A stretch of 64,000 nt of DNA from Pelagibacteraceae bacterium (GTDB lineage Bacteria > Pseudomonadota > Alphaproteobacteria > HIMB59), in NCBI GenBank assembly GCA_019651435.1, contig BOYI01000001.1, forward strand, positions 124,001-188,000, written 5' to 3'. Every line of letters begins with the position of its first letter. The first letter of the stretch is position 1. Position numbers and translations under genes: made by a program. The notes beneath the pieces are model-generated. The model saw nothing but the letters and a program-made list of their open reading frames with translations. It searched no databases and had not been told where the DNA came from. This document shows positions 39,114-50,985 of the stretch, in pieces.

Positions 39114-40418
39114 TTAAAACGCTGAGTCTCTGCCTTTAGATTTGGCAATTTCTCTCGCGTTAGGATTTACAGATGGTCTAAAAGGCATTTCTACTATTTC
39201 TCCATCAACTGGTTGACCTGGAGTATCGCAATATTCATCTGGTAAATGGAATTTAAATTTATTACCTATGTCTTTTTTTTCATAAGGCACATAACCCATT
39301 GCAATATTAGTCTCAAGCTCAGGAGAGTACCATGGAGATGTTAAATATCCAATTGGCGTGCTTCCATCTTCTGAGATAAGCCAAAAATCAGGAGCATACT
39401 CTTCAATTTTCTTACCTCCTAAAACAAAACCAACCAACTGATTACTATATGGTTTTTCGCCAGCTTCCATTTTAGCTCTCATAGCCTCTAAAGCTTCTTT
39501 ACCTATATAATCTGCAGTCTTTTTTCTAGGAACCTGATAACCAAGATTACATTGAAAAGGATATGTTTCAGCATCAAGATCTTGACCCCAAGATAAAATA
39601 CCAGCTGCAATTCTTCTATGATGAGCAGGAGCAATAACCTTTAAGTTATGTTTTTTTCCAGCTTCAAGAACAGCATACCACATATCATCAGCATACTTTG
39701 TTGCGTCTTTTAAATATATTTCATAACCTTTCTCACCAGTAAAACCAGTTTGTGAAATAATACAATCTCTTCCACCAACTTTTGCCTCCATGAGTCCATA
39801 ATAAGGAATATCTCTTACAGCATCACCGACCAAGTCAGCCATAAGATCAACTGATTTAGGACCTTGAATTTGAACTGGGCAAACATCTATCTCATCAATA
39901 GTGACATTAAAACTCTTGTCATGATTTACACCTTGTAAAAAAAACATGATGTCAGAGTCTGAAAGAGAAAACCAAAATTCATCCTCTGCAACTCTTAATA
40001 AGATTGGATCATTAAGAACCCCACCTTTACTATTACACAAAATAACATACTTACCATGCATGACTTCAATTCGTGATGCGTCTCTTGTAATTACATAATT
40101 TGTAAATTTTAATGCATCTGGTCCTTTAACTCTTATTTGTCTTTCAACAGCAACATTCCACATTGTAACGTGATTAACAAGCGCATCGTACTCAACCATT
40201 GCACCACCATCCTCAGGTTTTACATAACCTCTTGGATGATACATACGATTATAAACTGTACATCTCCAGCAACCAGCCTCTACAGCTAAATGCCAATATG
40301 GTGATTTTCTAACTCTTGTTGAAATCAACATTTGTTGTGGAGTAGGTCCGGATTGTCTTAAATTGTAGGGGACAAGTCTATCAGACTGATCCACAGTACT
40401 TGGATGTGTTAGCTTCAT
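39114..40418 (-). CDS. DmdA/GcvT-family aminomethyltransferase (DMSP-demethylase-like)
   Basis: MWNVAVERQIRVKGPDALKF, SKGGVLNDPILLRVAEDEFWFSLSDSDI (DmdA-like LNDP), but FTGEKGYEIY as in other GcvT members. Confidence 0.75.
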   Translation of the reverse strand: MKLTHPSTVDQSDRLVPYNLRQSGPTPQQMLISTRVRKSPYWHLAVEAGCWRCTVYNRMYHPRGYVKPEDGGAMVEYDALVNHVTMWNVAVERQIRVKGPDALKFTNYVITRDASRIEVMHGKYVILCNSKGGVLNDPILLRVAEDEFWFSLSDSDIMFFLQGVNHDKSFNVTIDEIDVCPVQIQGPKSVDLMADLVGDAVRDIPYYGLMEAKVGGRDCIISQTGFTGEKGYEIYLKDATKYADDMWYAVLEAGKKHNLKVIAPAHHRRIAAGILSWGQDLDAETYPFQCNLGYQVPRKKTADYIGKEALEAMRAKMEAGEKPYSNQLVGFVLGGKKIEEYAPDFWLISEDGSTPIGYLTSPWYSPELETNIAMGYVPYEKKDIGNKFKFHLPDEYCDTPGQPVDGEIVEMPFRPSVNPNAREIAKSKGRDSAF

Positions 40419-40499: not shown

Positions 40500-41381
40500 T
40501 TAGAAGATTTTTTTGTGGAGCTTTAATTTATCATTTTCAAGAGAAAATGATCCAGACTGAACCTCATTTAGCCACATGCAGGTTTTTTCAAAGCCCCCAA
40601 AAGGAAAGCAATGGAAGGATTTAAGCGGGGAGTCCGAGCCAGCATAATTAGAGAGGCCCAATAGCATTTCATCATTGGAAGTCTTGGTAAGCAAATCAGA
40701 GACTTTAGAAGAATTCTTTTTTAAAAAGTTTAAAGAGTTTCCAACACCACTCATCAAACCAAAGTTAAGTAAAGTCTTAAAAGAGGCAGGACCTGGGAAG
40801 CCCACTCTAACAGGAAGATCGATATTTTCTGATTTTAGTTTTTCACACCATGTAATGAAAGGCTCAGCGTTAAAGAAAAATTGAGTAACTAATTCAAAAT
40901 TTAAATTTTTTAATTTAGATAGCTCAAATTTTTTATTAAGAAATTGATCAATAGTTTCTTGATTGATATCTGGAGATCCCTCTGGATGACCGGCTATTCC
41001 AATATGATGAAATCCAAACTCAGTCAATAAACCAGACTCCAAGATATCTAAAGAAGATTTAATTTCTCCTGCTTGGTCGCCACCTCCACCGATGACTAAA
41101 ATCTTTTCGCTATCTGTTCTATTACGAATTTCTGTTAAAAAATTTTTAACATGATTTAGATCTTTCATTGTTCTGGCAGGAAGATGCGGGATAGGAATTA
41201 ATTTTTGATTAGATACAAACTCTATAGTTTCTAAAATATCGTTTTCAGAAGCATCAGGAAGATAAGTAATATAAATATGGTTTTTAGTATCTAAGGGTAT
41301 TGTATCTAATTTAAATCTAACTTTAGGATTGAGTTCAATCGTAAATCCTTGAATTAAAGAGACAATATTATCTTTGCTCAT
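40500..41381 (-). CDS. Methylenetetrahydrofolate reductase-like protein
   Basis: HIYITYLPDASENDILETIEFV..LIPIPHLPAR; IGGGGDQAG; GIAGHPEGSPD. Confidence 0.75.
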   Translation of the reverse strand: MSKDNIVSLIQGFTIELNPKVRFKLDTIPLDTKNHIYITYLPDASENDILETIEFVSNQKLIPIPHLPARTMKDLNHVKNFLTEIRNRTDSEKILVIGGGGDQAGEIKSSLDILESGLLTEFGFHHIGIAGHPEGSPDINQETIDQFLNKKFELSKLKNLNFELVTQFFFNAEPFITWCEKLKSENIDLPVRVGFPGPASFKTLLNFGLMSGVGNSLNFLKKNSSKVSDLLTKTSNDEMLLGLSNYAGSDSPLKSFHCFPFGGFEKTCMWLNEVQSGSFSLENDKLKLHKKIF

Positions 41382-41400: not shown

Positions 41401-43871
41401 TTAAGATTTTAATCTAGTATTTTCAGGATCTAAAAGAGGTTCAGTAGTTACGGTCAAAGGATACCTTTTTCCAAAGTATTCTAATTCAATTTTGTACCTG
41501 TAGAGGAAAGCTCTGAGGGTAGGTATCCATAAACAATATGTTTATCTACAAAGTACCCATAATTTGTACTAGTGACATAGCCTACTGCTTTTCCATCACT
41601 ATAAATTGGCTCTGTTCCTAAGGCCATTCCCTCAGAGTCGTCCATTACCATACAGGCCAATTTTTTCTGAATAGGTGCCTCTTTGATTTTAGAAAGTGCC
41701 TCCTTACCAATAAAATCAGTATCTTTTTTTAATTTTACTGTAAAACCTAATCCAGACTCATAGGGGTTGGTATTAGTGTGTATGTCTGAGCCAAGTGAGC
41801 GATAGCCTTTTTCTAAACGAAGAGACTCAAAAGCACCTGCGCCTGAACAAATCATGTTAAATTCTCTGGAAGTATTTCGAAGTTCATCCCATAGAGTTAA
41901 ACCATATTCTGTTGGAGTGTAAATTTCCCAACCTAACTCACCTATATAAGAAATTCGAACAGCAACACAGGGAATATTGCTAATGGATATTCTTTTAATA
42001 GAAAAGAATGGGAATGCTTCATTGGAAATATCATCATCATCACATAATTTTTCAAGAACACTTCTGGAATTCGGTCCCCATAGGCCAATCCCAGCTAAAG
42101 CAGACGTCCAGTCAATTATTTGAACACTTCCATCATTGGGCGCATTAACACGTAGCCAATTAATATCAATCATTCCATTACCTGCTCCAGCTAATACCCA
42201 AAATTTATTTTCTTCTAATCTGCTAATTGTTAAATCACTTTTTATTCCACCATAAATATTAGAAATGACACTGTAGACTACTTTTCCAACAGGAACGTCT
42301 ATGTTATTTGTACAAACTTTTTGTAAAAGATTTAAAGCACCTTTTCCATTTACCTCAATTTTCACAAAACCGGTAATATCAAAAAGCGCACCTGTTTGAC
42401 GAGTAACTAAATGCTCAGCTGCTTGAATGGGTGACCAATACTTGAGCCCAACCGGTTCCATGTAAGAAAATTTTTACCTTTAATTAATTCTGCATTAGAC
42501 TCATACCATTGGGGTCTTTCCCATCCCATAGTTTCAAAGAAATGTGCCTTCTGTCCTTCTAGGCGACTATAAAAAGGACTTCGACGCAGCGGTCGAGGTT
42601 GTTCCATCTGTTGAAGAGGATGAATAATATCATAGACCTCACGATAATTTTGCTTACCTCGGGCGCGTAAATATTTTCTTACATGATGATGAGGGTGAAA
42701 ACGATTTATGTCCCCTTGTCGAACATCAAGCTCAGGCTCGCCATTTACAATCCATTCTGCCATAGCTTTTCCAACTCCACCTGCATGAGTGATCCAGACA
42801 GCATTTGCTGTCCAGAGTCCTTTAATTGATGTTTCTCCCATTAGAGGATTCCATCAGTGTAAAAGAAAAAAGACCATTGATTTTTCTTGTTAATTTTTTT
42901 TCAGCAAATTTAGGAAATAGCCAATTAGACTCTTGATGAGCGCCTGCAAAATCATCTGGTCGAAAATCAACTAAAGAGGGCATTTCTTCAGCATCTTCGG
43001 GTTTTTTTAATTCCTCCGACTCTAATATACGAGGCTCATGTCTATAGTTACCAATAACATAAGTGTCATTCCACTGTCTGAAATAGAGACTGTAATCTTG
43101 ATGTCTCATTAATGCATGTTCTACTTGAGCCTCTTTGTGCTCTGCTTGAAATTCTTTTAATTCATCAAAAGGTTCTAACCATGCCATTTGATGCTCACAA
43201 GGCACAAGCGGCAAAGAGATATTTGCAAGCCTGCCCATTTTAGGTGCCCAAATTCCTGTAGATACCAAAACAATATCTGCTTCATATTCGCCGTGAGGTG
43301 TTTCCACTCCACGAATTTGATTATTAGAAATTTTAAAACCTGTTACTGGAGTGTCTCCAATAAATTCCCCTGCATTTAAATCAGTTACGTATTTTGCCAT
43401 TGCTCGCACAGCCCGAACTGGCGCGGCAAGTCCATCTGTAGGAACATAATACCCCCCATGTATTTTTTCTGGATCGATAAAAGGACTCATTTTAAGCACT
43501 TCATCTGGTGAAATTATTTTTGCATCAGTGAGACCATAGCTATGAGCTATGCCTAGTTTTCGATATAAATCTTCATGACGTTCTTTGGTTTTAGAGACCT
43601 CGATACCACCGACGGTATGAAAGCATGGTTTTCCTTCATAAGTTAGAGATCGAAGTAAATCAACAGTGTATTGAGCAAACTTACACATCATACGAGAGGG
43701 ATTTGTTTGGAATACACCTCCTGGCGCGTGGCTTGTAGACCCTCCAGTTTCAAATAGGGGACCTTGATCTAAAATTAGCATATCTTTCCAGCCTAGTTGA
43801 GCTAAGTGATAAGCAGTACTTGCTCCAACAATACCACTTCCAACGATAATGATACGAGACTTACGAGACAT
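41401..43871 (-). CDS. Dimethylglycine/sarcosine dehydrogenase-like FAD oxidoreductase with C-terminal GcvT domain, frameshifted
   Basis: IIIVGSGIVGASTAYHLAQLGW FAD motif; HAPGGVFQTNPS; middle piece ANAVWITHAGGVGKAMAEWIVNGEPELD; C-terminal GcvT with SYIGELGWEIY. The downstream frame continues ..TKLELEYFGKRYPLTVTTEPLLDPENTRLKS*. Confidence 0.88.
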
Positions 43872-43942: not shown

Positions 43943-44464
43943 CTAGAAATTTACTGCGTCAATTAATCGATCTTCAAAATAATCAGCAAAAGATCGATTA
44001 CAACTAATTAGCATATGATTTTCTAATCTATAAATATTACAGTCTATTCTAGCGACTAGTGTTTGAGCTGCAGTCATAGCTTTGAAATTCTTTTCTCTAA
44101 AATCGAAATGAGTCAATTTATTCAACATATAAAAGGTGTTGTTCCCACCGATTTGAAAAAAAACCTGAGCATCAGAGAAATTAGTTGCCAAAATAGATGC
44201 TTTTTCATTGAAATCCTCACAAATTTTTTGAACTTTAAAATCCTTATTGTCATTGAGGAAAATCAAATTCCATTGGTCAAAGGACATTTTTGCTAAAATA
44301 TGATTATCATCAGATACTATCCTCAGATTGTCTGAGGGCGGTAGTAACTTCAGTTTTTTGTTTAAAATATTGTTAAACTCGGAATTGCCCGATCCTCTAA
44401 TAATTATTTGGTGGGTTGAAAAAGTTTTAATCTCAACATCGTTAGAACGAATAACTTCTCTCAC
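43943..44464 (-). CDS. soxG: Sarcosine oxidase gamma subunit
   Basis: Position directly after soxA; small protein with RIDCNIYRLENHMLISCNRSFADYFEDRLIDA. Confidence 0.75.
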   Translation of the reverse strand: MREVIRSNDVEIKTFSTHQIIIRGSGNSEFNNILNKKLKLLPPSDNLRIVSDDNHILAKMSFDQWNLIFLNDNKDFKVQKICEDFNEKASILATNFSDAQVFFQIGGNNTFYMLNKLTHFDFREKNFKAMTAAQTLVARIDCNIYRLENHMLISCNRSFADYFEDRLIDAVNF

Positions 44465-47439
44465 GATACAAGCCTTTCGTTTTTTTCATCATAGAAAATT
44501 GGTTTAACGATATCGATAGGAATTGTTTTTTGATCAGAAGTAGAAGCAAAAGCTTTGGTGCCAATTAGGCTGTGACCATCTTTGATTACTGCTAGTCCAA
44601 AAGTATGGCCCATTGTAGGACTGTGATAACTTGAAGTTATATGCCCTAGCATTGGGACGGGAGTCTCTATGGTTTCTTGTAATAGAATATGTTGTCCTTC
44701 TTGAATTTGATCTTCTTTATTTGTAGGCATGATACCCACAAGTTGTTTACGATCTGAACGAACAGTATCAGAACGAGTAAGAGACCTTTTTCCAAGAAAA
44801 TCAGTTTTGTTTTTTCCAATCATCCAATTTAACCCTAAGTCTATTGGAGTAATAGAGCCATCAGTATCTTGACCTACTATGATATATCCTTTTTCCGCTC
44901 TAAGAAGGTGCATTGTTTCGGTTCCATATGGTATTAAACCAAACTCTTTTCCATATTCATGAATTCTCTCCCAAATTTTAAGAGCGGAACTAGCAGGCAC
45001 ATAGATTTCATAACCCATTTCTCCTGTAAAACTGGCACGCATAATTCTTATTTGGGTCTTCTCAAACTCATGGAATTGAAAAGTCATAAAAGGAAAAGCT
45101 TCATTCGAAAAATCAATCTCGGAAAAAACTTTACTCATGATTTCACGAGTTTTTGGTCCGCTAATATTAAATGTAGCAAACTGTTCAGTGATCGAATTCA
45201 TGTAAACTTTTAAATTTGGCCATTCTGTTTGAGCATATTCTTCCATGCATGCTAAGACATTTGCGGCTCCACCAGTTGTAGTAGTAGCAATGAAGTGTTC
45301 ATCAGAAATTTTACATATAATCCCATCATCTTTAACCATTCCATCTTCGCCTAACATCAAAGCGTAGCGGGCAGACCCAGGCTTCATTTTTGTAAAGCTA
45401 TTTGTGTAAATTAAATTCATAAAATTAAGGGCATCTTTTCCTTTAATCTCAATCTTTCCAAGAGTGCTTCCATCTAAAACACCAGCATTTTCACGAACGT
45501 TTTTACTTTCCCTTTGAACAGCATCATGCATTGACTCTGATTTTGAATTTGGGAAATACCATGGTCTTTTCCATTGACCTACATCTTCAAAAACCGCACC
45601 ATTTTTAATATGCCATTGATGAATGGGTGACTTTCTCTCAGGGTCATAAAATTCATATGAATTTCTACCAGCGATAGCTGCAAAACTAAGAGGTGCATAA
45701 GGTGGTCGATAAATCGTTGTCCCAACCTCGTTTACTTTTTTGTCTAAAAGATCAGAAACAATACCTAGGGCATTAATACTACTAATTTTTCCTTGGTCAG
45801 TTCCCATGCTATTAGTTGTAAATCTTTTAAGATGCTCAATACGATCAAAACCCTCTGAAATTGCCTGTCTGATATCTTTTGTGGTAACATCATTTTGTAA
45901 ATCAATAAATGATTTAGACCACATTGATGATTTATGGGCAGCTACTTCCCAAAGCTTTTGTATTTGATATTCATTTGCTGTGCTTGGTTTAATTTTTATT
46001 TTTATTTTATTTGGGCTAAAAATTTTTAACTTTTTATTTATCTCATTTTCAACTTCTTCTAGATTAAATTGACCACTGGCCGAACCTAAAGTGATAGTAT
46101 TTTGGAAAGGAGTAGAGGGTTTATAAGTAAGATCTTTTTCATCCCAGTCAAGCAAACCTTTTGATTGTGTGAAAAGATGCACATCCGGATTTATTCCTCC
46201 AGAAACACATAAAAAATCTGTAGCAATTTCGCTTGTTCCACCAGAACTATCCTCAACAATTATTTTCTCTAATTTTTTATTACCATATGCAGCCTTAACT
46301 TGTGCATTAGTATATAAAGGAATGTCATTCTTTCGAATTAAATCAAACAATTGTCCTTCTATTTGTTCGCCAGACCTGGAGTCAATATAAGCTTTTGGCT
46401 TAATATTTAATTCCAGTAGTGTTTGAATTAAGCTGTTGGAGTTTGAGTTGTTACTAAAAATTACTGGCTCTTTTGACGGTATGACACCATATCGACAAAC
46501 ATATTTCTCAAATGAAGCGCCCAGCATAATTCCAGGAAGATCATTATTTTGAAAAGATAAAAAACGCTCAATGTGACCGTTACTAAGAATCACATGTTCA
46601 GTTCTAATTTTATGAAGAGTGCTATTGACTTTATCCTCAGCAGGCTTGGCTCCTACATATTTATCTTCAACCGCAATAAGGTGATTGATATAATTATATG
46701 TAGTTACAAGAGTATTTTTTAAAATTTTAATATTCTTAGAATTCTCAATGTTTTCAATAGTTTCTTTAATCCATTCTTGAGATCTTTTGCCATTAATTTC
46801 ATTTATCTTTGATGAATTATTTAATATCCCACCTAATTGATTGTCACTTTCAATCAATAAAACGTCATAGTTTGTATTAATAAGTGAGACTGCTGCTAGC
46901 AAACCATTGAGACCACCACCTACAATGACAATGTCAACGTTATGGTGGAGATGAGAGCTAATCGCTTTAAACTCTTTAGGGGGCTTTCCAAGACCCGCAG
47001 CTTTTCTGATAACAGGTTCATAAATTTTTTTCCAAAAACTTTTATGTGGTCCCATAAAAGTTTTGTAGTAAAACCCAGCAGAGAAAAGAGGCGAAAATAC
47101 ATTATTGATACTGCCAATATCAAAATCGAGTGATGGCCATCGATTTTGACTCTCTACTTCCATCCCTTCGTAAATTTTTTTTACAGTTGCTCGTACGTTT
47201 GGTTCTGAATACTCACTTATAATTTGAACAAGAGCGTTAGGTTCCTCAATGCCACAAGTATAAATTCCTCGGGGTCGGTGATATTTAAAACTTCTTCCAA
47301 TTAATTTTATTCCATTTCGAAATAGGGCACTTGCAATCGTATCTCCTTTATATCCATAATATTTTATTCCATCAAATTTGAAGCTAATCTTCTGATGAAA
47401 ATGAATGAATGGACTATTTTGATTTTTCAGTTCGGTCAT
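44461..47439 (-). CDS. soxA: Sarcosine oxidase alpha subunit
   Basis: FKYHRPRGIYTCGIEEPNALV; VDIVIVGGGLNGLLAAVSL; C-terminal GcvT domain ASFTGEMGYEIYVPA. Confidence 0.94.
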   Translation of the reverse strand: MTELKNQNSPFIHFHQKISFKFDGIKYYGYKGDTIASALFRNGIKLIGRSFKYHRPRGIYTCGIEEPNALVQIISEYSEPNVRATVKKIYEGMEVESQNRWPSLDFDIGSINNVFSPLFSAGFYYKTFMGPHKSFWKKIYEPVIRKAAGLGKPPKEFKAISSHLHHNVDIVIVGGGLNGLLAAVSLINTNYDVLLIESDNQLGGILNNSSKINEINGKRSQEWIKETIENIENSKNIKILKNTLVTTYNYINHLIAVEDKYVGAKPAEDKVNSTLHKIRTEHVILSNGHIERFLSFQNNDLPGIMLGASFEKYVCRYGVIPSKEPVIFSNNSNSNSLIQTLLELNIKPKAYIDSRSGEQIEGQLFDLIRKNDIPLYTNAQVKAAYGNKKLEKIIVEDSSGGTSEIATDFLCVSGGINPDVHLFTQSKGLLDWDEKDLTYKPSTPFQNTITLGSASGQFNLEEVENEINKKLKIFSPNKIKIKIKPSTANEYQIQKLWEVAAHKSSMWSKSFIDLQNDVTTKDIRQAISEGFDRIEHLKRFTTNSMGTDQGKISSINALGIVSDLLDKKVNEVGTTIYRPPYAPLSFAAIAGRNSYEFYDPERKSPIHQWHIKNGAVFEDVGQWKRPWYFPNSKSESMHDAVQRESKNVRENAGVLDGSTLGKIEIKGKDALNFMNLIYTNSFTKMKPGSARYALMLGEDGMVKDDGIICKISDEHFIATTTTGGAANVLACMEEYAQTEWPNLKVYMNSITEQFATFNISGPKTREIMSKVFSEIDFSNEAFPFMTFQFHEFEKTQIRIMRASFTGEMGYEIYVPASSALKIWERIHEYGKEFGLIPYGTETMHLLRAEKGYIIVGQDTDGSITPIDLGLNWMIGKNKTDFLGKRSLTRSDTVRSDRKQLVGIMPTNKEDQIQEGQHILLQETIETPVPMLGHITSSYHSPTMGHTFGLAVIKDGHSLIGTKAFASTSDQKTIPIDIVKPIFYDEKNERLVS

Positions 47440-47786
47440 TTCTTTACAGTAAAATTACCTGAACCCACATCTGGCTCTCCAGATGGAGTTTTAATTTTAT
47501 TTTCAAATTTTTTCAGAGGTGGTTGTGGGTCATCTAATTTATAAATTTCTAAAATTTCATCAGTTGAGGTATCACGAACACAGTTAAACCATTTACGACA
47601 TCCATGAGAATGGACCCATCTCTCATAAAATAGACCTTTTGGATTGGATCGAATGAAAACATATTCTCCCCATTCTCGATCACTTATATCTTGTGACCCA
47701 TCGGGGCGTTTAACGTGCGCCTCACCGCCGTTGGAAAATTCAGATTGGTCTCTTGGTCCGCAATAAGGGCAGTCTATCACTAACAT
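47436..47786 (-). CDS. soxD: Sarcosine oxidase delta subunit
   Basis: IDCPYCGPRDQSEFSNGGEAHVKRPD; WVHSHGCRKWFNCVRDT. Confidence 0.94.
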   Translation of the reverse strand: MLVIDCPYCGPRDQSEFSNGGEAHVKRPDGSQDISDREWGEYVFIRSNPKGLFYERWVHSHGCRKWFNCVRDTSTDEILEIYKLDDPQPPLKKFENKIKTPSGEPDVGSGNFTVKK

Positions 47787-47792
47787 TGAATT

Positions 47793-49043
47793 TTAATGAG
47801 CTACTGCTGCAGCCCCATGTTCATCAACTAATTTACCACTTGCAAAACGGTCTAAATTAAATGCGGCATTAATTTGATGAGGCTCATTTTTGGCAATTGT
47901 ATGAGCAAATACATTTGCACTGCCTGGTGTTGCTTTAAAACCACCTGTCCCCCAACCACAATTAAAAAATAATCCCTCAACATCGCATTTACTTATTATG
48001 GGACTTGCATCAGGACAAATATCAACGATTCCACCCCATTGTCTGAGCATTTTCATCTTACCAAAAACAGGGTAGAGCTCTACCATCGCTCGAATTGTTT
48101 CTTCAATAATATTAAACCCTCCTCTTTGGGTAAAAGAATTGTAACTATCTGTTCCTGCTCCAATCACTAGCTCCCCTTTATCTGATTGACTAACATAAGC
48201 ATGAACTGCTGATGACATGACAACAGTATTAATAATTGGTTTAATAGGTTCAGAGACAAGGGCTTGAAGAGGTTTGCTTTGAAGTGGAAGTCTTATTCCA
48301 GCAGTCTCCGCCAGAACACCTGTATGACCCGAAGCCACAACACCAATTTTGTTAGCTCTAATAAATCCTTTTGAAGTTTCAACTCCTTCAATTTTTCCAT
48401 TTTTAGTTCTAATTTGTTTTGCCTCACAATTTTGAATGATGTCAACACCCATTTCATCTGCACGCATCGCAAAACCCCAAGCAATAGCATCATGACGAGC
48501 CACACCTCCTCGAGGTTGAAATGAAGCACCAAGAACTGGATATCTAAGATTATCTGTATTCATAATAGGTACCATTTTTTGAATTTCTTCTTTAGACAAC
48601 CATTCAGAGTCGATACCGTTTAAATTATTAGCGCTTACACGTCTTTTAATTTCTTTAATATCATGTTCATTGTGAGCTAAATTCATCACACCTCTTTGGC
48701 TAAACATCACATTGTAATTGAGTTCTTGGGAAAGATTTTCCCAAAGCTTCAGAGAATGCTCATATAAGTGAGCACTATCATCCCATAAATAATTTGAACG
48801 GATAATAGTAGTATTACGACCTGTGTTGCCTCCACCAAGCCAGCCTTTTTCTATTAAAGCAATATTTTTTAATCCATGTTCTTTTGCTAAATAGTAAGCG
48901 GTTCCTAATCCATGGCCTCCTCCACCTATTATAATAGCATCATAAAATTCTCTAGGCTCAGGACTACGCCACATTTTAGGCCAGTTTTTATGTCCTGAAA
49001 GAGCGTTTCTTGCAATACTAAAGATAGAATAATTTTTCTTCAC
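47793..49043 (-). CDS. soxB: Sarcosine oxidase beta subunit
   Basis: [53 protein letters not shown]. Confidence 0.95.
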
Positions 49044-49071: not shown

Positions 49072-49902
49072 TCAGCTAGTTATTTTCATTGGCGAATTGT
49101 CTTTCATATTTCGAAAAATTTTGGGAAATTGCCATTTTAATTCACAATCGATGTTGGGCGCCTCATTTTTGGAATCCAGGTCGTCTTGACAAACTGTCCT
49201 AATTTCATAGCTAAATCTAGTATTTTCAGATTTGTGTTTTGAGGAGCTATGAAGATGACTTCCAGAAAAGCACAAGATTTCACCAGGTTTGATAGTGACG
49301 GGTAAAATTCTTACATTTTCTGGTAGTTTTTCTAGTAATTCTGGGGCTGAAGGATAGGAAAAATCTCCTTTTTTTCGATTCTCTAAATAGATATTTAAAT
49401 CCCAAGAGCCAGTAGAGTTTTTAACAGGTCGATCAAAATAATCAGGAAAAAAAACCATGGTGTTTGTCTCCTCAATTGAGCTGATTGGTGCCCACCAATT
49501 TATTTGTTGGTGAATGTTGGTGCCCCAAGTATCTCGATGCACTCCTATTCTAGATGCTTCTCGATATTTAAATTTATTTTTAGCTGGTGCAACACGAACA
49601 ACAAACTTATCCCAATAACTTTCTCCTTGTAAAAAATTTATAGAGTGTAGGAATTCGTAAAATAAGTTTTTAAAAATTTCTGTATTTTTTAGATTAGCAA
49701 CTAAATAGGTGCTTATTTCCTCACAATTAGAAAGATGATGTAACTTTTCTAACTCCCCAGAGTAATCAATTCCAATTTTTTTTTTAATTTGATCTACTAA
49801 TTGACTTGTAATTTTAGATTTTTCAAAAACATAAATTTTGCCATTAAAAATTTCTTTTTTAAATTGAGCTAAATTTCCTATCTGCGATATAGGTACAAAC
49901 AA
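49072..49902 (-). CDS. Putative Fe(II)/2-oxoglutarate-type dioxygenase (phytanoyl-CoA dioxygenase-like fold)
   Basis: HRDTWGTN (candidate HxD), PGEILCFSGSHLHSS (distal His) and NTRFSYEIR (Arg). Starts with TTG immediately after pfkA. Confidence 0.6.
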   Translation of the reverse strand: MFVPISQIGNLAQFKKEIFNGKIYVFEKSKITSQLVDQIKKKIGIDYSGELEKLHHLSNCEEISTYLVANLKNTEIFKNLFYEFLHSINFLQGESYWDKFVVRVAPAKNKFKYREASRIGVHRDTWGTNIHQQINWWAPISSIEETNTMVFFPDYFDRPVKNSTGSWDLNIYLENRKKGDFSYPSAPELLEKLPENVRILPVTIKPGEILCFSGSHLHSSSKHKSENTRFSYEIRTVCQDDLDSKNEAPNIDCELKWQFPKIFRNMKDNSPMKITS

Positions 49903-50985
49903 TTAAGAAATATCACCGACGTACACGCCGAGTGCTAATGCAGTTTCAATGAGAGGGTCGGTACGATCAACAACTTTATAGGTAGAAATACCTTCAGAGA
50001 TTGGAACATCAATTACCTTTCGATCTTTCCACGCTACCATACGATCAAATTTACCTTGAGCGAGTAAATCAACAGCGTAAACACCAAATGCACTTGCTAA
50101 AATTCTATCTCTAGGTGTCGGAGGCGCGCCTCTCTGGACGTGACCTAATGAAGTTACACGGCATTCTATATCCGTATTTTTCATTATAGCTTCTGATAAA
50201 TAAGTACCAATGCCACCAAGTCTTTTTTGGCCATCAGCAAATTCAACCTCATATGTTTTTCCATCTTCAGTTTTGACAGCCTCTGCAACTACAATTAAAG
50301 AGTGAACAACTCCTCTGTTTTTCATTTCAGTTAACTTATTTACCACACCTTTAATTGAATAATTAAGCTCCGGAATTAAAATTACATCAGCCCCACCAGC
50401 AATACCTGCATTAATAGCTATATGACCAGCATCTCTTCCCATTACTTCTAAAATCATTGTTCTATGATGGCTGGCTGCAGTCGATTGAAGGTTATCAAGT
50501 GCTTGAGTAGCAACATTTACCGCAGTATTAAAGCCAATTGAACTCTCTGTGGCTCCGACATCATTATCAATAGTTTTAGGAATAGCGACTATCTTTAAAT
50601 CACCTCGCTTAGCAATTTCAGTTAGAATCGCCATACTTCCGTCACCACCAATAACAATTAAACCCTCAAGTCCTAGTTCGTGATAACCATCTATAATTTC
50701 TTGAGAGCGATCTTTAAAAGAACCATCGGCCATAGGAAATTTAAATGGATTACCTTTATTAGTTGTTCCTAAAAAAGTCCCACCCTGTCTTAATAGGGCA
50801 CCGCTGAATGTTTGATAATCTAAAGGAAGAAAGGCAACTGGTCGTTGCATTAAGCCTACAGTACCATCTCGAATTCCGAGAACTTCCATGCCGTAGGTAT
50901 TTTTAGCACGAAAAAAAATAGAACGAACCGCTGCATTTAATCCACCGCAATCACCACCACTTGTTAAAATTCCTATTTTTTTCAT
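49903..50985 (-). CDS. pfkA: 6-phosphofructokinase family
   Basis: GILTSGGDCGGLNAAVRSI; VIGGDGSMAI; IPKTIDNDV; MGRDAGHIA. Confidence 0.92.
   Translation of the reverse strand: MKKIGILTSGGDCGGLNAAVRSIFFRAKNTYGMEVLGIRDGTVGLMQRPVAFLPLDYQTFSGALLRQGGTFLGTTNKGNPFKFPMADGSFKDRSQEIIDGYHELGLEGLIVIGGDGSMAILTEIAKRGDLKIVAIPKTIDNDVGATESSIGFNTAVNVATQALDNLQSTAASHHRTMILEVMGRDAGHIAINAGIAGGADVILIPELNYSIKGVVNKLTEMKNRGVVHSLIVVAEAVKTEDGKTYEVEFADGQKRLGGIGTYLSEAIMKNTDIECRVTSLGHVQRGAPPTPRDRILASAFGVYAVDLLAQGKFDRMVAWKDRKVIDVPISEGISTYKVVDRTDPLIETALALGVYVGDIS

Follow-up and report, generated by a model that had tools for sequence, protein, structure and literature searches.

The window, that is, the whole stretch of 64,000 nucleotides that was analysed, carries on its minus strand an ORF for a predicted Fe(II)/2-oxoglutarate (2OG) oxygenase, which lies between pfkA and the sarcosine oxidase genes soxBDAG and is followed further downstream by a DMGDH-type gene, a MetF-like reductase gene and a DmdA-like methyltransferase gene (Table 1). 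The oxygenase ORF starts with a TTG at 49902 that directly abuts the pfkA stop codon (49903-49905), with no gap; its own stop ends at 49072, and 28 bp separate it from the GTG of soxB at 49043. The ORF, strand and coordinates given in the initial annotation were exact on re-reading, its distances to both same-strand neighbours agree with the coordinates, and the three ligand motifs that it had picked out (HRDTWGTN, SGSHLHSS and NTRFSYEIR) are present in the ORF. The TTG start is supported by the closest relatives, which have TTG at the same position; most SAG relatives have ATG there, and two have GTG.

Table 1. Genes of the cluster around the oxygenase ORF, from pfkA downstream
Feature	Coordinates	Strand	Remarks
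pfkA, 6-phosphofructokinase	49903..50985	-	PF00365; NF010674 561.9 bits; abuts oxygenase
Predicted Fe(II)/2-oxoglutarate oxygenase, PhyH-like superfamily, unnamed subfamily	49072..49902	-	276 aa; putative ligands H122, D124, H218, 2OG-binding R229
soxB, sarcosine oxidase beta subunit	47793..49043	-	TIGR01373 678.9 bits, above cut-off 529
soxD, sarcosine oxidase delta subunit	47436..47786	-	PF04267
soxA, sarcosine oxidase alpha subunit	44461..47439	-	TIGR01372 1144.9 bits, just below cut-off 1164; PDB 2gag sarcosine oxidase alpha, E 1e-200
soxG, sarcosine oxidase gamma subunit	43943..44464	-	PF04268
DMGDH-type gene (FAD + GcvT domains)	41481..43871	-	split by small indels in assembly; 824 aa in relatives
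MetF-like 5,10-methylenetetrahydrofolate reductase	40500..41381	-	293 aa; best PDB match 7xg9 5,10-MTHFR, E 2e-46
DmdA-like GcvT-family aminomethyltransferase	39114..40418	-	434 aa; PF01571; NF009133 DmdA 265 bits, below cut-off 410; PDB 3tfh

Several small indels break the DMGDH-type gene of the window into three ORFs, where five relatives have a single one of 824 aa; indel errors of the assembly are suggested, since the host genome (1.35 Mb, 7 contigs) is only 69% complete. A second sox set exists in the genus (L130, 2004-19750; G030 C1, about 1.207-1.225 Mb), whose neighbours, judged by eye, are N-methylglutamate synthase-, glutamine synthetase III-type-, flavin monooxygenase- and Rieske-like genes, and which looks like a methylamine/N-methylglutamate pathway. 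Because that set sits beside N-methylglutamate-type genes, the sox set of the window is more likely the one for dimethylglycine and sarcosine.

The class of the oxygenase was assessed on an alignment of 25 homologues (A2), with identities down to 19%. Invariant in this alignment are G21, R103, H122, R123, D124, W126, Q133, N135, W137 and P139, as well as N162, G207, F212, H216, H218, R229, R235, D252 and F263, so that the HxD...H triad and the downstream 2OG-binding Arg of the Fe(II)/2OG superfamily are conserved across all 25 sequences. Two more distant plasmid homologues outside A2 read SGAQLHE, with H218 kept and H216 replaced by Gln, which makes H218 the probable third ligand of the metal. 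R229 follows H218 by 11 residues, the usual His-to-Arg spacing for the 2OG-binding Arg in this superfamily.

The AlphaFold model obtained from A2 reached a pLDDT of 91.6 and a pTM of 0.90, and superseded a model from the genus sequences alone (pLDDT 59). Foldseek matched this predicted structure to the double-stranded beta-helix fold, with SptF as best PDB match (E 5e-10, probability 1.0), and the best 50 PDB matches listed were all Fe/2OG oxygenases, among them SptF, AndA, PtlH and MysH. The oxygenase shares with these members of the PhyH superfamily (PF05721) the predicted fold and the HxD...H...R site, but is only 10-16% identical to them, and the TM-scores are modest (0.41-0.50); the class of fold can thus be regarded as secure, although none of the solved enzymes comes near the oxygenase. 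No confident relative emerged when the PDB was searched by sequence. Terpenoids or meroterpenoids are the substrates of the best-matching solved enzymes, or mycosporines in the case of MysH, and we know of no sox-type context for PtlH, SptF, AndA or MysH. The Fe/2OG type proposed in the initial annotation is borne out by the invariant motif and the predicted PhyH-type fold, and the structure prediction that had been suggested as a check does present a candidate 2-His-1-carboxylate site. It is well supported, by motif and predicted fold, that the protein is a genuine PhyH-type Fe(II)/2OG oxygenase, the turnover being predicted and the putative active-site geometry being drawn from the sequence and the fold match. 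An inactive homologue was ruled out, all ligands being invariant, and a PHROGs match to endonuclease V (E 0.03) was dismissed as chance.

To judge by profile scores, no curated family claims the oxygenase. It scores 16.9 bits against Pfam PhyH, below the gathering threshold of 22, and PF05721 matches 9 of the 25 family members at E <= 0.01. The closest curated profile is TIGR04324, the sporadic carbohydrate cluster 2OG-Fe(II) oxygenase, which is matched at 37.6 bits (E 1.7e-9), far below its cut-off of 150, and weakly by 22/25 members. True members of TIGR04324 are present in two relatives (G031 C36 and G060 C12), and in G031 the gene is distinct from that of the oxygenase. The carbohydrate gene cluster that is the context of TIGR04324 was not encountered: in the window the oxygenase is surrounded by genes for sugar kinases, sarcosine oxidase, DMGDH and a MetF-like protein, and none of the ten annotated neighbours is a glycosyltransferase or sugar-tailoring gene.

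Within the genus, a marine alphaproteobacterial one, the oxygenase was found in 44 of 52 genomes, the window's own included (two copies are partial), and the genomes without it are mostly incomplete. Pairwise dN/dS is 0.06-0.18 for the oxygenase, against 0.01-0.03 for soxB; it is a working gene under purifying selection, but under weaker constraint than its neighbour, and evolves several times faster. Among the genus loci examined, every contig of sufficient length shows the order pfkA-oxygenase-soxBDAG-DMGDH. In three divergent lineages (L070, L071 and L072) glk lies on the opposite strand, yet the order of pfkA, oxygenase and sox genes is unchanged. The gap to pfkA is small or absent throughout the genus, and pfkA is also found near the oxygenase in the f81 family (L106 and L118), as would be expected if the oxygenase belonged with pfkA and glk in sugar metabolism and not with the sox genes. 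This is nevertheless very improbable: DMGDH and MetF-like genes stand between oxygenase and pfkA in the f81 family, three other loci (L096, L101 and L110) have no pfkA near the oxygenase, and no role in upper glycolysis is known to us for a 2OG oxygenase.

Outside the genus the distribution of the family is patchy. When 385 genomes of the class were searched with a profile, 25 proved to carry the oxygenase, 21 of them outside the genus, and a search of the phylum contributed three more (G590, G597 and G630), which belong to other classes or families; phage records and viral contigs yielded no homologue. Several of the loci recall the window. In L096 the oxygenase and soxBDA point away from each other and DMGDH lies further along; within 3 kb on the other side of the oxygenase are a formaldehyde-activating-enzyme homologue and a Rieske oxygenase. 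In L101 it is followed by a DmdA-like gene; in L110 it occurs with soxBDA, DmdA-like, MetF-like and DMGDH genes, in L106 and L118 with MetF-like, DMGDH and pfkA genes, and in L105 it adjoins a short GcvT fragment (174 aa). The DmdA-like protein is far more conserved than the oxygenase, the window's being 79% identical to that of L101 and 71% to that of L110, both in other families; it is an orphan methyltransferase that merits its own study.

A GcvT-domain gene lies within 5 kb of the oxygenase in 5 of the 18 homologue-bearing genomes outside the genus, representing five families scattered over the tree, where 0.45 would be expected from the number of GcvT-domain genes per genome. The corresponding P values, about 4e-5 for five linked genomes and 7e-4 for four (L105 left out), are rough, as they take no account of dependence through shared phylogeny or of the tendency of GcvT genes to cluster. 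The association with soxBDAG that the initial annotation asked to be checked is conserved across the genus, and recurs near sox, DMGDH and GcvT-type genes in other alphaproteobacterial families. Folate-dependent demethylation clusters are one recurrent use of the family, and the operon association is real and partly independent of the genus.

The family is, however, broader than the demethylation pathway, as 13 of the 18 genomes show no GcvT-domain gene within 5 kb, two f10 genomes have none detected anywhere, and the plasmid members (Aminobacter, Pseudomonas, Sinorhizobium and Phyllobacterium) have no cluster genes within 10 kb. Those on the Aminobacter and Pseudomonas plasmids are annotated as 'hypothetical protein'. 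On the Aminobacter plasmids (L137 and L139, about 7.4-12.3 kb) the homologues come after cytochrome bd-type oxidase genes and are oriented towards a gene of the PLP-dependent aminotransferase family. In L109 (9170-13172) the homologue directly adjoins flagellin/hook-like genes, as judged by eye, a possible sign of a different role in the family, and in L115 it stands beside a TylF-type methyltransferase. These last two contexts, the weak TIGR04324 matches and the patchy distribution would suit a hydroxylase tailoring a carbohydrate or surface structure, placed beside sox only incidentally. Such a role seems rather unlikely, given the low score, the absence of sugar-tailoring genes around the window's copy and the recurrent linkage to demethylation genes.

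The reading preferred here, given slightly better than even odds, is that the oxygenase acts on a methylated osmolyte upstream of DMGDH and sarcosine oxidase, by hydroxylation and perhaps by N-demethylation. H122, D124 and H218 would hold the iron and R229 would anchor 2OG inside the double-stranded beta-helix. The gene is probably co-transcribed with soxBDAG and the genes for the DMGDH-type flavoprotein, the MetF-like reductase and the DmdA-like methyltransferase, a set expected to strip methyl groups from glycine-type amines onto tetrahydrofolate. As is established for enzymes of these families, DMGDH and Sox take off N-methyl groups and yield methylene-THF; a DmdA-like enzyme, together with MetF, would route a methyl group via 5-methyl-THF. 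The target would be a small methylated zwitterion, whose hydroxylation at an N-methyl group would give formaldehyde and the demethylated amine; alternatively, hydroxylation at the adjacent carbon would split off a methylated glycine. Either product would enter the DMGDH/sarcosine oxidase route. Against this reading count the homologues that lack the linkage, the nearest curated model, which describes a carbohydrate-cluster oxygenase even if the score is far below its cut-off, the faster evolution of the oxygenase than of soxB, the shortness of the GcvT fragment in L105, one of the five linkages, and the fact that, to our knowledge, DMGDH and sarcosine oxidase need no oxygenase. Of the earlier proposal, the class and the cluster association stand; oxidative N-demethylation or hydroxylation of a betaine or methylamine would be a plausible activity, but many homologues lie in unrelated contexts.

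Three known routes, GbcAB, BHMT and MtgBCD, feed the same demethylation steps of dimethylglycine and sarcosine, but use Rieske, homocysteine-methyltransferase or corrinoid chemistry, and none is an Fe/2OG oxygenase (PMC12478193, PMC3160333). The oxygenase might replace them as a glycine betaine N-demethylase forming dimethylglycine and formaldehyde. The operon encodes the next two steps (DMGDH and Sox), five genus genomes and the linked G115, G281 and G461 yielded no gene of the MTTB/MtgB type, and the Rieske alpha subunit (Ring_hydroxyl_A) had no match in G004 and G020 (94% complete). Moreover, the S-methyltransferase of G004 that was compared with human BHMT resembles it only weakly (69.5 bits over some 150 residues). 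On the other hand, three Ring_hydroxyl_A genes are present in G030. Glycine betaine is a candidate substrate proposed from genomic context. This specific role is considered quite unlikely, because S-methyl_trans homologues, which may act as BHMT, occur in every genome tested, and the first methyl group could instead go via the DmdA-like methyltransferase and MetF. It is likewise doubtful, if a shade less so, that this is the first oxidative demethylase of the Fe(II)/2OG type to act on glycine betaine or on a quaternary osmolyte related to it; if true, abundant open-ocean bacteria would be able to enter sarcosine catabolism by a first step that needs neither corrinoid nor Rieske chemistry.

The literature search found no description of such an oxygenase with sox genes, and term searches of two HIMB59 genome papers found neither a dioxygenase nor sarcosine mentioned. 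According to one study, AEGEAN-169/HIMB59 bacteria make up about 6% of cells at most in South Pacific Gyre surface waters, one of their clades shows relatively abundant transcripts for sarcosine oxidation and expresses a glycine betaine transporter at a high level, and glycine betaine catabolism is reported for HIMB59 and all Ca. Nemonibacter, in passages that do not mention the oxygenase (PMC11366302). That the oxygenase is conserved in an operon of this kind points to a methylated substrate, or to a demethylation step, as yet unassigned in the cycling of carbon and nitrogen in the ocean.
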